Source: an uncultured Oscillospiraceae bacterium
GTDB taxonomy: Bacteria; Bacillota; Clostridia; Oscillospirales; Oscillospiraceae
Reading direction: 5' to 3'
NCBI GenBank assembly: GCA_947588955.1
Contig: CANPYX010000002.1
Span: 124,001 to 188,000, forward strand
DNA length: 64,000 bases
The notes beneath the pieces were generated by a model. That model saw only the letters and a program-made list of their open reading frames with translations, searched no databases and was not told the origin of the DNA. Positions 48,416-60,688 of the stretch are shown here, in pieces (the stretch's first letter is position 1; each line of letters starts with the position of its first letter). Made by a program: the position numbers and the translations under genes.

Positions 48416-49141
48416 ATGAAAAAGCTTTTGATACCCGTCTGCGTTCTGGTCGTCATTGCCTGCGCCATAGGAGTTTTTTTCCTGACGCGGCAGGAGGAGG
48501 AGAGCGAGCCCGCGCTCCTGGCTGATTTCGTGGACAACGGGCTGGGGGAGCCATATTCCCAAAATGTACCGGTGGATGAGATGCACTTTTTGGACTATGG
48601 CAAGTATTTTGGCAAAATGTATACCCTTATTGATGATGGAATGCGGTTTGTGAAGACCGTTGCACTACCATGCGATGTGCATTACTATGCGCACCCAGGG
48701 GATTGGTGGCCTGTGCTGACGCTGAAAAAGGGTCAGGAGGTCTATGTGCTGTCCTTCTACGGGTGGTATGACGATTTCGTCGATAACTACGATCTCGGTT
48801 ACGGTCCCAGGTGTTGGCCTGACTATCGGGAGGGCTGGCGGTACGGGCTGCCCTTCGCCACGGACGACAGACGTGTGGACGGATTCTTCGGTGACGACAC
48901 AATGTACTATGTGAAGACCGAGGAGCTGGAGGCGGTTGTCGGCGCGTTCTATGACGTAAACGAGGATATTGCCGAGAAGAAGAGCTTAGCTGGAACCGGA
49001 TTTACCATGTTCTCTAAAGATTTTTCCGAGTGTCCCTACGATGATGACGATACACGTGAGAGATTCGTGTGGTGCGTCACGCGGTATATCGACGAGCGCC
49101 TGTTCCAGAACGGCGTGTTCTGCTCGAGGGATATGCCATAA
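48416..49141 (+). CDS. Hypothetical secreted or membrane-anchored protein
   Basis: The 241-residue protein has one N-terminal helix (LLIPVCVLVVIACAIGVFFL, residues 4-23) without a clear lipobox. The rest is acidic and rich in aromatic residues (Tyr, Trp, Phe), with several Cys (e.g. CWPDYREGW, CPYDDDD, CSRDMP). I do not recognise a family. GAAGGAGGAG precedes the ATG. The structured repeat copy 1 begins four bases after its stop. Confidence 0.7.
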   Translation: MKKLLIPVCVLVVIACAIGVFFLTRQEEESEPALLADFVDNGLGEPYSQNVPVDEMHFLDYGKYFGKMYTLIDDGMRFVKTVALPCDVHYYAHPGDWWPVLTLKKGQEVYVLSFYGWYDDFVDNYDLGYGPRCWPDYREGWRYGLPFATDDRRVDGFFGDDTMYYVKTEELEAVVGAFYDVNEDIAEKKSLAGTGFTMFSKDFSECPYDDDDTRERFVWCVTRYIDERLFQNGVFCSRDMP

Positions 49142-49144
49142 TAT

Positions 49145-49321
49145 TTATTCCAAAAGGGCTTTGCCCTTTTGGAATAAGGGGAAACGTGCGAAAAAGGATT
49201 CTGAAATGTCTGCGGACATTTCAGAATTCTTTTTCTGCTGTCACGGTTCGCGCACTCGCTGCGCTCGCACACTCACCGTGACAAGAGGTGATTTTTCCGA
49301 CGTACATGCCGTCGGAAAAAT
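49145..49321. repeat. Structured intergenic repeat, copy 1
   Basis: The ~177-bp element has four hairpins. H1 is 49145-49159 with 49163-49177. H2 is a ~20-bp stem around loop TGCG at 49211-49214. H3 is TGTCACGGT 49239-49247 with ACCGTGACA 49275-49283. H4 is 49291-49301 with 49311-49321. Linkers GGGGAAACGTGCGAAAA and GGTGATTTTTCCGACGTACA are shared with copy 2 at 59916-60087, while the H1, H2 and H3 stem sequences differ but still pair. It lies between convergent genes. Confidence 0.9.
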
Positions 49322-49343
49322 ATTTGAATTTGGGGTTCTCAGA

Positions 49344-57820: not shown

Positions 57821-58798
57821 ATGGACATAGAGACAACTGTAGCTCAGGCGATACATTCCGCCGACGACAAAGCCAGATATGACGCCGCGTGCAAAAGGCT
57901 TTTATCCGAGAAGTCTATTCTCGCCAGGATCATGCGGCGCTGTGTCCCCGAATACTTAAATTGCAGTGTCGAGGATATTGAGAAGCGTTACATCGAAGGA
58001 ACGCCGCAGGTCGGCGAGGTGCCGGTTTTCCCAGACGGGCAGTCCCCGATAATTCGCGGTCAGGATACCAGCGACAAAAGCGTGAGCGAGGGAACGGTCA
58101 CCTACGATATCCGTTTTCAAGCCTTGATCCCTGGCACGGATGACAGGCTGAGCCTTATCATAAATATCGAAGCCCAGAACAAGTATAACCCAGGGTATCC
58201 GCTGACCATGCGCGGAATATACTACTGCGCCCGCATGATCTCCTCCCAGTACGGACAGGAATTTGTGTAATCGCACTATGAGCGGCTGAAAAAGGTATAC
58301 TCGATCTGGATCTGCATGGACCCGCCTAAGGAAAAGGCGAACACGATCATGCAATACGCCATACAAAAAAGAGACGTCTTCGGCAGGACCGTCGAGCCGG
58401 TCGAGCATTATGATCTGCTGACGGTCATCATGCTGAATATCGGCAATCCGGAGGAACCGGGCGCGGATAAGCTCCTGAGAATGTTGGGAGTTCTTCTGTC
58501 GGGGAAAATGAAGGAAAATGAGAAGCGGGATATTCTGACAAATGAGTACAATATCCCTATGACGCGTGAAGTTGAAAAGGAGGTTACAGCAATGTGCAAC
58601 TTGAGCCAGGGAATCGAAGACCGCGGGATTCAAATAGGCAGGCAGGAAACTCATATCGATCTGTACTGGTCAATGCTAAATGAACACCATTGGACATCAA
58701 AAGAAGCCTTGGACTTTCTCAAAATACCTGTCAACGAGCGTGAAAGCTTCCTGAAGGAAGCGCAAAAGGCAAACATGGCACAGTGGCAACGAGGTTAA
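57821..58798 (+). pseudogene. Rpn/PD-(D/E)XK nuclease family (putative transposase) gene with nonsense mutation
   Basis: One frame runs from 57821 to 58798 except for a TAA at 58268-58270. Before it are the catalytic regions YDIRFQALIPG and IINIEAQNKYNPGYPLTMRGIYYCARMIS (PD-(D/E)XK core), and after it SHYERLKKVYSIWICMDPPK, a usual continuation of this family. The C-terminus (IEDRGIQIG, SMLNEHHWTSKEALDFLKIP) is partly duplicated downstream. These proteins are RecA-independent recombination-promoting nucleases or transposase relatives, often decayed in gut Firmicutes. Confidence 0.8.
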
Positions 58799-58799
58799 A

Positions 58800-59042
58800 G
58801 TGATGTGTAATTTGAGTCAAGCTATTGAAGACCGCGGAATTCAAATAGGGTTTCAACAAGGCTTTAAAGAAGGCTTTAAACAGGGATATAAACAAGGCAG
58901 GCGGGAATGCTTTATCAACGTGTACTGGTCAATGCTAAATGAACTCCATTGGACATCGGAAAAGGCCTTAGACTTTCTCAAAATACCCGTCGACGAGCGT
59001 GAGAGTTTTCTTAAGGAAGCGCAAAAGGCAAACAACGCGTAA
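58800..59042 (+). pseudogene. Tandem partial copy of the Rpn-type C-terminus
   Basis: About 80 codons repeat the end of the preceding gene (CNLSQAIEDRGIQIG, YWSMLNELHWTSEKALDFLKIPVDERESFLKEAQKAN), with a 14-residue insertion of FKEGFKQGYKQG repeats. It is in a different frame from the upstream copy and starts right after its stop. It may be translated from GTG 58800 but lacks the nuclease domain. Confidence 0.7.
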
Positions 59043-59074
59043 CATAAAATATTACTTAAAAAGTGGGGCTGAGG

Positions 59075-59941
59075 ATGGCAGAGCTTTTGAAGGGCGCGCC
59101 GGTGGCGGCGAGGATGAATGAGGAGACGCGCGCGCGTGCAGGGGCGCTTCGGGAAATGGGCGTCGTGCCGACGCTGGCGCTGGTGCGCGTGGGTGAAAAC
59201 CCCGCGGACATCTCCTATGAGCGTGGGGCGGTGAAGCGTTGCGCCGGAGTGGGGATAGAGACGAGGAGCGTCGTACTGTCCGAGGACGTGAGCGAGGCGG
59301 AGCTTATTGACACCATCCGCTCCCTGAGCGGGGATAAGTCCGTTCACGGGATACTCATCTTCCGTCCCCTGCCCAGGCACATCGACGACTCCGCCGTCTG
59401 CGCCGCGCTGGACCCGGCCAAGGACGTGGACGGAATAACCGACGTCTCCCTCGCCGGGGTGTTTACCGGCAGCGGGCGGGGCTTCTGCCCCTGCACAGCC
59501 GAGGGCTGCGCCCGGATACTCGACCACTACGGTATTGACTGCGCCGGAAAGCGGGCGGTGGTCATCGGCAGGAGCCTGGTCATCGGCAAGCCCGTGTCCC
59601 AGCTGCTCCTCGCCCGCAACGCCACGGTCACAGTATGCCACACCCGCACACGGGACCTTGCCGGCGAGACGCGCCGCGCTGACATAGTCGTCTCCGCCGT
59701 GGGACGCCTCGGCTCCCTCACCGCCGGCCACGTCTCTCCCAGACAGGTGATAGTGGACGTGGGGATAAACGAGCTCCCCGACGGCGGCATATCGGGCGAC
59801 GCGGACTTTGAGGCGGTGGAGCCCATCGTCTCCGCCATCACTCCCGTACCCGGCGGCGTCGGAAGCGTCACCACCGCCGTCCTCGCCCGCCACACAGTTG
59901 AATCTGCTGAGAATCCAAAAAATGGCAAAGCCATTTTTTGA
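59075..59941 (+). CDS. folD: Bifunctional methylenetetrahydrofolate dehydrogenase/cyclohydrolase FolD
   Basis: The 288-residue FolD has SYERGAVKRCAGVGIE (catalytic Tyr and Lys), PLPRHID, KDVDGI, VVIGRSLVIGKPVSQLL (NADP site) and ITPVPGGVGSVTTAVLARHT. It interconverts 5,10-methylene- and 10-formyl-THF. ATG 59075 follows GGGG. The last codons and the TGA lie inside hairpin H1 of repeat copy 2, so the end of the protein (NPKNGKAIF) comes from the repeat. Confidence 0.94.
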   Translation: MAELLKGAPVAARMNEETRARAGALREMGVVPTLALVRVGENPADISYERGAVKRCAGVGIETRSVVLSEDVSEAELIDTIRSLSGDKSVHGILIFRPLPRHIDDSAVCAALDPAKDVDGITDVSLAGVFTGSGRGFCPCTAEGCARILDHYGIDCAGKRAVVIGRSLVIGKPVSQLLLARNATVTVCHTRTRDLAGETRRADIVVSAVGRLGSLTAGHVSPRQVIVDVGINELPDGGISGDADFEAVEPIVSAITPVPGGVGSVTTAVLARHTVESAENPKNGKAIF

Positions 59942-60087
59942 TGGGGAAACGTGCGAAAAGCCCTTGCGAAAGGTCTGCGGACCTTTCGCAAGGGCTTTCC
60001 TGCTGTCGCGCTGCGCGCGTGACCCGAAGGGTCACACACTTGCGTGACAAAAGGTGATTTTTCCGACGTACATGCCGCCGGAAAAAT
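59916..60087. repeat. Structured intergenic repeat, copy 2
   Basis: The ~172-bp element is homologous to copy 1. H1 is CAAAAAATGGC 59916-59926 with 59930-59940. H2 is a 19-bp perfect stem (59957-59975 with 59980-59998) around the same TGCG loop. H3 is 60004-60011 with 60042-60049, enclosing GTGACCC/GGGTCAC (60019-60035). H4 is 60057-60067 with 60077-60087, with one mismatch. It lies between convergent folD and the hydro-lyase gene and supplies the folD stop codon. Confidence 0.9.
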
Positions 60088-60133
60088 ACTGGATTTTGAG
60101 CTTTTTAGTCTAAGTCAGGGGGGCCTGCCTCTT

Positions 60134-60688
60134 TCACATTTTATATTGTTCTATCCCCTGCCGGAATATGTCTCCGCCTGTGGGGTCGATTCCCACTGTC
60201 AGGGGCATTTTTTCTACGTACAGGCGCTTTACGGACTCGCAGCCCAGCTCCGGGAAGGCTATCTCCTCCATCTCCTTTATGGACCTTGCCACGAGAGCCC
60301 CGGCGCCTCCCACGGCGCACAGGTAGACGGCGCCGTTTTTCACGATGGAGTCCCGGACATCGTCGGACCTGAGCCCCTTGCCTATCATCGCCGCGAGCCC
60401 CAGATCCAGGAGCCTTGGCGTAAAGGCGTCCATGCGGCTCGATGTGGTGGGACCGCAGGCGCCGGTGGGCATACCGTCGTGCCCCGGCGTGGGTCCGGCG
60501 TAATATATGACGGCGTCCTTTATTTCAAAGGGCGTCCTCTCCCCCGCGTCAAGGAGCCGGAATATGGCCATGTGCGCCTGGTCGCGGGAGGTGTAAACCG
60601 TCCCTGTGAGCAGTACCCTGTCCCCGGCGCGCATTTGCGGAGCGAAACTCCTTATCTCCTCTGACCTTATATCGAATATCTTCTGCAC
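60134..60688 (-). CDS. Fe-S hydro-lyase beta subunit (fumarate/tartrate dehydratase type)
   Basis: The 184-residue protein matches the C-terminal/beta part of class I fumarase or L-tartrate dehydratase: GPTTSSRMD, YYAGPTPG, IGKG and GIDPTGGDIF. The beta subunit supplies substrate-binding residues; the alpha subunit carries the 4Fe-4S cluster. No alpha gene is in this window, so the partner is encoded elsewhere or lost. GTG 60688 lies inside the upstream coiled-coil gene (22-base overlap) with GAGGAG upstream. Confidence 0.85.
   Translation of the reverse strand: MQKIFDIRSEEIRSFAPQMRAGDRVLLTGTVYTSRDQAHMAIFRLLDAGERTPFEIKDAVIYYAGPTPGHDGMPTGACGPTTSSRMDAFTPRLLDLGLAAMIGKGLRSDDVRDSIVKNGAVYLCAVGGAGALVARSIKEMEEIAFPELGCESVKRLYVEKMPLTVGIDPTGGDIFRQGIEQYKM

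Follow-up and report, generated by a model that had tools for sequence, protein, structure and literature searches.

The window analysed here, a stretch of 64,000 nucleotides from an uncultured Oscillospiraceae bacterium, contains two copies of what is probably a family of interspersed mosaic repeats, non-coding, belonging to a single bacterial order, probably Oscillospirales, and recognised through a folded single strand and not through the sequence of its stems. Many copies are present per genome, at the ends of genes; each consists of four hairpins, whose stems covary and whose unpaired bases stay constant. Between close species the copies are present or absent, inverted, or have their hairpins replaced; the hairpins assort independently, and the copies fold better as the minus strand.

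The element spans about 180 bases, followed by a conserved tail of 19 bases, and is organised as H1, GGGGAAACGTGCG, H2 with its TGCG apex, CTGCTG, H3, AAAAGGTGA, H4 and the tail (Table 1). H3 is itself composite, with an outer stem, constant internal strands and an inner hairpin. The family consensus of the tail is TATTTRATTTKGGGTTTTT, and the information drops to about zero from about position +20 (65 copies of the own genome and 81 others). An earlier note, made from the window, had described two copies of a three-hairpin unit. Both were located where it placed them, and they have in common the linkers and the GTC-TGCG-GAC apex, while the stems of H1, H2 and H3 differ, with pairing kept in H2. 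Other parts of that description had to be revised: there are four hairpins, the presumed linker GGTGATTTTTCCGACGTACA entering the 5' arm of H4, and conservation extends some 19 bases beyond H4, where the unit was thought to end. The stem of H1 has 15 bp in copy 1 and 11 bp in copy 2. In copy 1, H1 starts directly past the stop of a plus-strand ORF (48416-49141); in copy 2, it overlaps the final codons and the stop of the folD ORF (59063-59941). By inspection the sequence of H1 fits an intrinsic terminator, although a terminator scan listed H4 and H2 and not H1; H3, H4 and the tail lack the terminator shape, H4 having T before it and A after it. When copies were parsed with no requirement on the apex of H2, it was TGCG in 89 of 92 and CGCA in none. 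Both window copies fold far better than their shuffled versions as plus-strand RNA (z = -10.75 for copy 1 and -8.10 for copy 2, none of 200 shuffles each being as good), and copy 2 reaches z = -11.87 against 200 shuffles on the minus strand.

Table 1. Positions of the parts of the two element copies in the window.
Feature	Positions	Strand	Description
Copy 1, whole	49145..49340	minus	orientation inferred from better minus-strand folding in the family
Copy 1, H1	49145..49177		perfect 15-bp hairpin, A-run/GGGC-TTT-GCCC/T-run, shaped like an intrinsic terminator on either strand
Copy 1, linker	49178..49190		GGGGAAACGTGCG, kept across the family
Copy 1, H2	49191..49234		conserved TGCG apex
Copy 1, H3	49240..49282		GTCACGG..CCGTGAC type, conserved internal strands
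Copy 1, H4	49291..49321		least variable hairpin of the four
Copy 1, conserved tail	49322..49340		
Copy 2, whole	59916..60105	minus	RNA MFE of 59916-60087: -97.0 minus, -88.3 plus
Copy 2, H1	59916..59940		11-bp hairpin CAAAAAATGGC-AAA-GCCATTTTTTG
Copy 2, linker	59941..59955		ATGGGGAAACGTGCG
Copy 2, H2	59957..59998		19-bp stem, TGCG apex
Copy 2, H3	60005..60048		GTCGCGC..GCGTGAC type, inner GTGACCC-GAA-GGGTCAC hairpin
Copy 2, H4	60057..60087		
Copy 2, conserved tail	60088..60105		

Some copies (L021, L022, L026, L028, L031, L056 and others) carry a second structured module of about 110 bases inside the arm of H3. By eye its stems have also changed and remain paired, and it also occurs outside the H3 arm; a similar sequence is found in contig C4 of the related genome G019, near the equivalent of own C14:16644. 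Two further ideas on the structure were dropped. A pseudoknot between linker 1 (CGTGCG) and an internal strand of H3 was abandoned as copies with CGTTCAG keep their H3 loops unchanged (by eye), and a short ORF from the ATG in the loop of H4 was abandoned as most of the G042 relatives have ACACG there.

The family goes well beyond the two copies of the earlier description. A 20-base linker/H4 word occurs, with at most three mismatches, at 107 places in the own genome (2.56 Mb in 58 contigs), and the reversed word at none; a covariance model returned 148 matches, a figure that includes antisense and split matches and is no copy number, which makes 107 the safer count. The earlier note had proposed a covariance-model search of this genome and its relatives. 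The model R1, built from 42 intact copies of the own genome, recovered further copies there and in 31 of the 34 same-genus genomes within a draw of 60, with at least 40 matches in 18 of these 34, at most 55 candidates being scored per genome. Across the order, R1 matches 34 of 394 sampled genomes, in 19 of 168 genera. A second model, R2, was made without any sequence of the own genome, from nine sequences of other genera and two of low-copy species in the own genus (11 in all). It has matches in 46 of 388 genomes of the order, distributed over 22 of 167 genera, and finds copy 1 of the window at E 1.4e-9; five families (f1, f3, f7, f13 and f19) are represented in both order-wide draws. In a class-wide draw R2 matches six of 391 genomes; three of the six do not belong to the order (E 1.4e-9 to 6.4e-7). 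These distributions rest on strict filters and sampled genomes, and assemblies of MAGs may misplace repeats. Among the matches listed for the exact 20-mer, 64 of 68 named stretches come from the rabbit-gut MAG Oscillospiraceae Lapin-032 bin87. The 20-mer also matches MAGs of Bacteroidia and Hydrogenedentota (L072, L077), with no element match around it, and two Acetatifactor MAG contigs with a similar Lapin sample name (L081, L100) carry elements, perhaps by a binning error.

Pairing is maintained throughout this collection, and neither of the outcomes named beforehand as refuting the structure, a lack of further copies or stems that do not stay paired, occurred. In the 42 own copies 94.2% of the cells are paired, against 41.6-59.0% when the partners are displaced by one to three columns. 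Changes on both sides are seen in 24 of 44 pairs, and the covariation score is reached by none of 500 shuffles, while a measure of further pair types does not rise above them (492 of 500 reach it). For 95 matches from eight species, the own and seven others, in an alignment fitted to the model, the values are 94.7% paired against 39.7-56.0%, 40 of 44 pairs changed on both sides, and no shuffle of 500 reaching any of five measures. The copies are related, and these permutation numbers do not equate to probabilities of independent events. Among 11 sequences, nine from other genera, 90.1% of the cells pair against 35.2-50.4%, and 17 of 26 pairs are two-sided, the inner helix of H3 being paired in only 64.3% of its cells. 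The structures of the 42-copy and 11-sequence sets were drawn from single rows and are therefore favoured over the slid versions. Several columns of H2 hold all four Watson-Crick types. Across genera, the constant unpaired bases are the GC and CGCA internal to H3, the AC..T opposite, the GAG before H4 and the CA.G in its loop. Several readings of aligned sequences in this analysis were made by eye. The description of the element as structured and repeat-like thus stands, with pairing maintained as stems change in many copies and several genera.

The hairpins assort independently. Their types were compared in 45 copies of the own genome and 47 from loci L069-L136 (46 from the MAG of G019 and one from an Acetatifactor MAG contig). 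The type of H2 is independent of that of the outer H3 stem, with mutual information no higher than in shuffled data (p 0.89 in the own set and 0.42 in the G019 set), and of that of the inner H3 hairpin (p 0.54 and 0.49). The outer and inner parts of H3 are linked (0 of 2000 shuffles in the own set, p 0.0015 in the G019 set), and so is linker 1 with H2 (0 of 2000 shuffles in both sets). An orthologous site in G019 was obtained for 33 of the 62 own copies tried, with flanks 89-99% identical, mostly around 95%. Both copies can be parsed at 27 of these 33 sites, in the same orientation at 24 and in opposite ones at three; the other six pairs are partial, unparsed or lacking the element in one species. 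Of the 24 pairs with matching orientation, 13 have almost identical H2 hairpins, nine have a replaced H2 and two are intermediate; H3, comparable in 17 pairs, is nearly the same in seven, replaced in six and intermediate in four. The insert of about 110 bases in the H3 arm was gained or lost in seven pairs, and H4 diverges by no more than 7% between own and G019 orthologs. Copy 1 of the window exemplifies hairpin replacement, and copy 2, outside the 33 sites, is inverted in G019.

Between orthologs, H1 shows a paired change (TTATTCC/GGAATAA in the window, TTATCTC/GAGATAA in its ortholog), as does a gene-end hairpin at L049/L122. The spacer is inverted in three of 33 matched ortholog hairpins (19 are the same and 11 otherwise different), and once more, by eye, at C36:12835; these flips were set aside as proof of template switching, being too few and also explained by a swap with a flipped copy. 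Because whole hairpins swap between copies, and template switching can produce compensation by mutation, covariation is weaker proof of selection on structure than the earlier note assumed, even if pairing is indeed kept across many copies and genera. Two other kinds of sequence differ between the same genomes. An insertion of about 160-180 bases with inverted ends near GGAACCTCTGAA..TTCAGAGGTTCC, at own C14:1612 and C7:9143 (L200, L209), is absent in G019 and is likely a classic MITE, and a repeat of about 120 bases that contains TATAATATCCGC and related hairpins, at own C7:12762 and in G019 C4 near own C14:7260, is carried by one of the two species and missing from the other.

All 101 distinct parsed copies are more stable as minus-strand RNA, by a mean of 11.25 kcal/mol, and the consensus energy is -61.8 for the minus strand against -50.4 for the plus strand. 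H3 favours the minus RNA in 99 of these copies and H4 in 98 (with three ties); counting unique hairpins only, the minus strand is favoured in 72 of 74 H3 and 11 of 12 H4. It folds better because conserved A·C clashes turn into G·U pairs. On the plus strand, 32 of 42 copies contain an A·C clash in H4, and G-C alternates with C·A in the internal strands of H3, whereas on the minus strand the clashes are G·U wobbles and one-sided variation passes through G·U (GU 32 and AU 10; GU 21 and GC 20). The preference is found in other species too: taking H3 and H4 together, 11 of 12 copies favour the minus strand (10 of the 12 belong to other genera, the remaining two to low-copy species within the own genus), and H4 alone does so in 13 of 18, with two for the plus strand and three ties, these 18 being the 20 found in 33 loci minus two identical to the L291 hairpin. 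H2, however, opposes it, favouring the plus strand in 81 of 101 copies, with 18 G·T and five A·C among its non-Watson-Crick pairs. Counts of G·U against A·C, used as a strand test, gave an answer mixed by helix (plus for H2, minus for H4), and folding energies were compared afterwards. DNA parameters give the same preference (97 of 101 copies), so RNA is not singled out. Function thus more likely resides in the minus strand, as RNA or as single-stranded DNA, between which these energies do not distinguish, and the strand read in the earlier note is probably not the functional one.

The genomic neighbourhood was assessed on 66 H4-type hits from the window and 60 own loci, of which 58 had both neighbours called by a codon-usage script; one of these, at window position 60207, was a false hit, which leaves 57 copies. 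Both window copies lie between convergent genes, as the earlier note observed, and this holds for only 26 of the 57; 21 lie between genes in the >E> arrangement, 10 in the <E< arrangement and none between divergent genes. For 47 of the 57 copies the gene on the side of H1 points towards the element, with a stop 18-34 bases before the fixed point of the core, about where H1 starts, in 21 cases; in the other 10 of 57 it does not end at the element. The right-hand gene heads away in 21 of 57, so that no read-through would make a minus RNA there. Copy 1 is flanked by an ORF with no Pfam match and a DUF2812 ORF, and copy 2 by folD (THF_DHG_CYH domains) and the ORF of a fumarase C-terminus. Genomes with about 75% identity mostly do not have their sites in common. 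At the folD site the element lies between the two genes in three of the 14 genus genomes that have both in one locus (own, G019 and G024), the one in G024 with a different H4 stem; two further genomes have an element elsewhere in the locus, and the end of folD in a relative differs from that at copy 2, where it is overlapped by H1. By eye, TTATGTNAAC, on either strand, recurs, often several times, in the folD-fumarase intergenes of many species of the genus (L219, L220, L223, L225-L229, L232, L233). Upstream, at 57821-59042 of the window, three consecutive plus-strand ORFs resemble a broken, partly duplicated gene; they contain a repeat of 140 bases, at 58636 and 58895, with 85% identity.

Such placement would be expected of two-way transcription terminators or stabilisers of mRNA 3' ends selected by the host, and the A-run, GC-stem and T-run of H1, together with the orientation of the H1-side genes and the stops next to H1, speak for them. 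The idea of a dual terminator nevertheless accounts for H1 only: H1 alone would suffice, H3, H4 and the tail are not terminator-shaped, and sites are mostly not common to the genomes, as at folD. We consider this explanation unlikely. The elements could also be non-autonomous transposons (MITE-like or REP-like) moved by a single-strand transposase, in which only the folding of single-stranded DNA is selected and RNA has no role. The bias of copies towards gene ends, their absence from divergent intergenes, their gain, loss and inversion between close species and the minus preference with DNA parameters fit this idea. The Y1 transposase (PF01797) is present in 18 of 34 genus genomes, more often in those of high copy number, with at least 40 matches (13 of 18), than in the others (5 of 16), counts possibly confounded with genome size. 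The own genome (G000, 96% complete) has no match to it, nor do five of the 18 high-copy genomes; Y1 may thus help somewhere but is not needed now, it was rejected as the sole mover for the own genome, and the REP label fails there for the same reason. As for a MITE, no terminal inverted repeats were seen, inspection showing that the tail does not repeat H1 in inverted form; at four sites with the element present or absent, own against G019, no target duplication was seen by eye and none was a clean empty site, and no larger autonomous copy was noticed by eye in the long insertions between these genomes. We consider such a transposon rather unlikely.

A terminator-targeting element that is reverse-transcribed, such as remnants of group IIC introns, would likewise settle behind terminator-like hairpins, and the linker ends in GTGCG, which resembles the 5' end of a group II intron. 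This origin is very improbable. No group II intron matches the surroundings of copy 1 up to E = 1, the window has no match in Rfam 15 at the gathering threshold, and relatives in other genera lack GTGCG at that place (by eye). Reverse transcriptase is absent from nine of the 18 high-copy genomes, G019 included; it was rejected as the mover, and one maintained in cis is already refuted. Mutation alone might also be invoked, the elements being neutral debris whose palindromes are kept perfect by a polymerase that switches template and copies one arm onto the other. Such switching between palindrome arms yields compensated changes, by the accounts of the mechanism given in PMC8794818 and PMC8604942, and the paired changes in H1 and at L049/L122 and the inverted spacers are of the kind it predicts. 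Three observations make it decidedly unlikely as the whole explanation: unpaired linker and internal-loop bases are constant across genera whose stems differ, the apex of H2, which the mechanism would flip, is CGCA in none of 92 copies, and pairs of the G·U type have fixed positions on one of the strands. The bases kept across genera already suggest a conservation of linkers that does not rest on recent transfer, which would speak against mutation alone.

Searches of the open-access PMC literature showed no description of this family. Rfam gave only four tRNAs and a fluoride riboswitch in 10 element loci, all in L160, and below the gathering threshold the surroundings of copy 1 gave nothing but hits to unrelated families of the kind expected by chance. 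The phage collection contains no match to copy 1, and the plasmid collection none to copy 2; the H4 word is present on three viral contigs, two of which (L287 and L288) have an equally scored divergent match of 57.8 bits, and the element may ride on phages there or these contigs may be misassigned host DNA. The family is multi-copy, non-coding, covarying and inconsistently orientated relative to genes, as are structured interspersed repeats, of which BOX elements and the MRSC category are, judged by their descriptions, the nearest kinds. BOX of Streptococcus pneumoniae is portrayed in PMC3049150 as a modular interspersed repeat with an optional inner module, over-represented between convergent genes, hairpin-rich if transcribed and thought to be mobile and parasitic. 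Both are modular, interspersed and rich in hairpins; by that description, ours is set apart by stems that vary and covary, hairpins that assort independently and an order-wide range. MRSC-65-2 is presented in PMC11109978 as a multi-copy structured motif of strong covariation, judged selfish and left open as to RNA or DNA, but it consists, as far as its description goes, of a single long stem carrying UYCCGG repeats and occurs in diverse phyla, against four hairpins with internal loops essentially in one order here; H4 contains TTCCGG on the minus strand.

Recognition by structure on one strand has its nearest case in the attC sites, which PMC2727003 describes as variable in sequence and conserved in structure, with only one folded strand reacting. 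The likeness to the folded-strand preference found here (97 of 101 copies minus as DNA) is an analogy only, and, in contrast to integron attC, no cassette array was noticed. REP elements with TnpA-REP, described in PMC8266576 as high-copy palindromic repeats that are possibly non-autonomous, differ from four hairpins in about 180 bases in a genome with no Y1. Intrinsic terminators and SPRITE, the latter as given in PMC3049150, have the shape of H1, but only one of the four hairpins is clearly of this kind.

We return to a mosaic repeat recognised through its folded strand, which we consider probable. Its functional strand would be the minus one, read 5'-tail-H4-H3-H2-H1-3', most likely as an RNA that ends at the H1 terminator and possibly as single-stranded DNA. 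A putative protein that spreads or maintains the element would contact the constant loops and linkers, and if so, any stem that pairs would do. The variety of stems could then come from the exchange of whole hairpins between dispersed copies across their common linkers, and from paired changes inside hairpins, which selection and perhaps also template switching from arm to arm would bring about. To the host a copy would probably be tolerable and sometimes useful as a two-way terminator at the end of a gene. Against this stand the searches of genus genomes for Y1 and reverse transcriptase, which did not find the mobilising enzyme, the comparison of the own genome with G019, in which no empty site was clean enough to define the ends or a target duplication, the plus preference of H2, the weaker preference of H4 alone in other species, the equal result with DNA parameters, the measure of further pair types that stays within its shuffles, the 10 of 57 copies where the H1-side gene does not end at the element and the 21 of 57 where the right-hand gene heads away. 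More tentatively, and with less than even confidence, one may see here order-wide mobile elements recognised by structure and carrying exchangeable hairpin cassettes, where a factor of the host or the element would read only the loops, junctions and linkers of the folded minus strand and stems would be replaceable wholesale. Copies would then stay in place as their content is shuffled, inverted and given new stems.

Each of these genomes offers around 100 natural replicates in which pairing was kept and sequence was not, at matched sites in close species. Such replicates make it possible to test whether compensated stem changes originate by selection, by template switching or by the exchange of whole hairpins, and how small structured repeats that lack a transposase are moved. 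They also call for caution, because the covariation of multi-copy hairpins may stem from the exchange of cassettes and not only from slow compensation.
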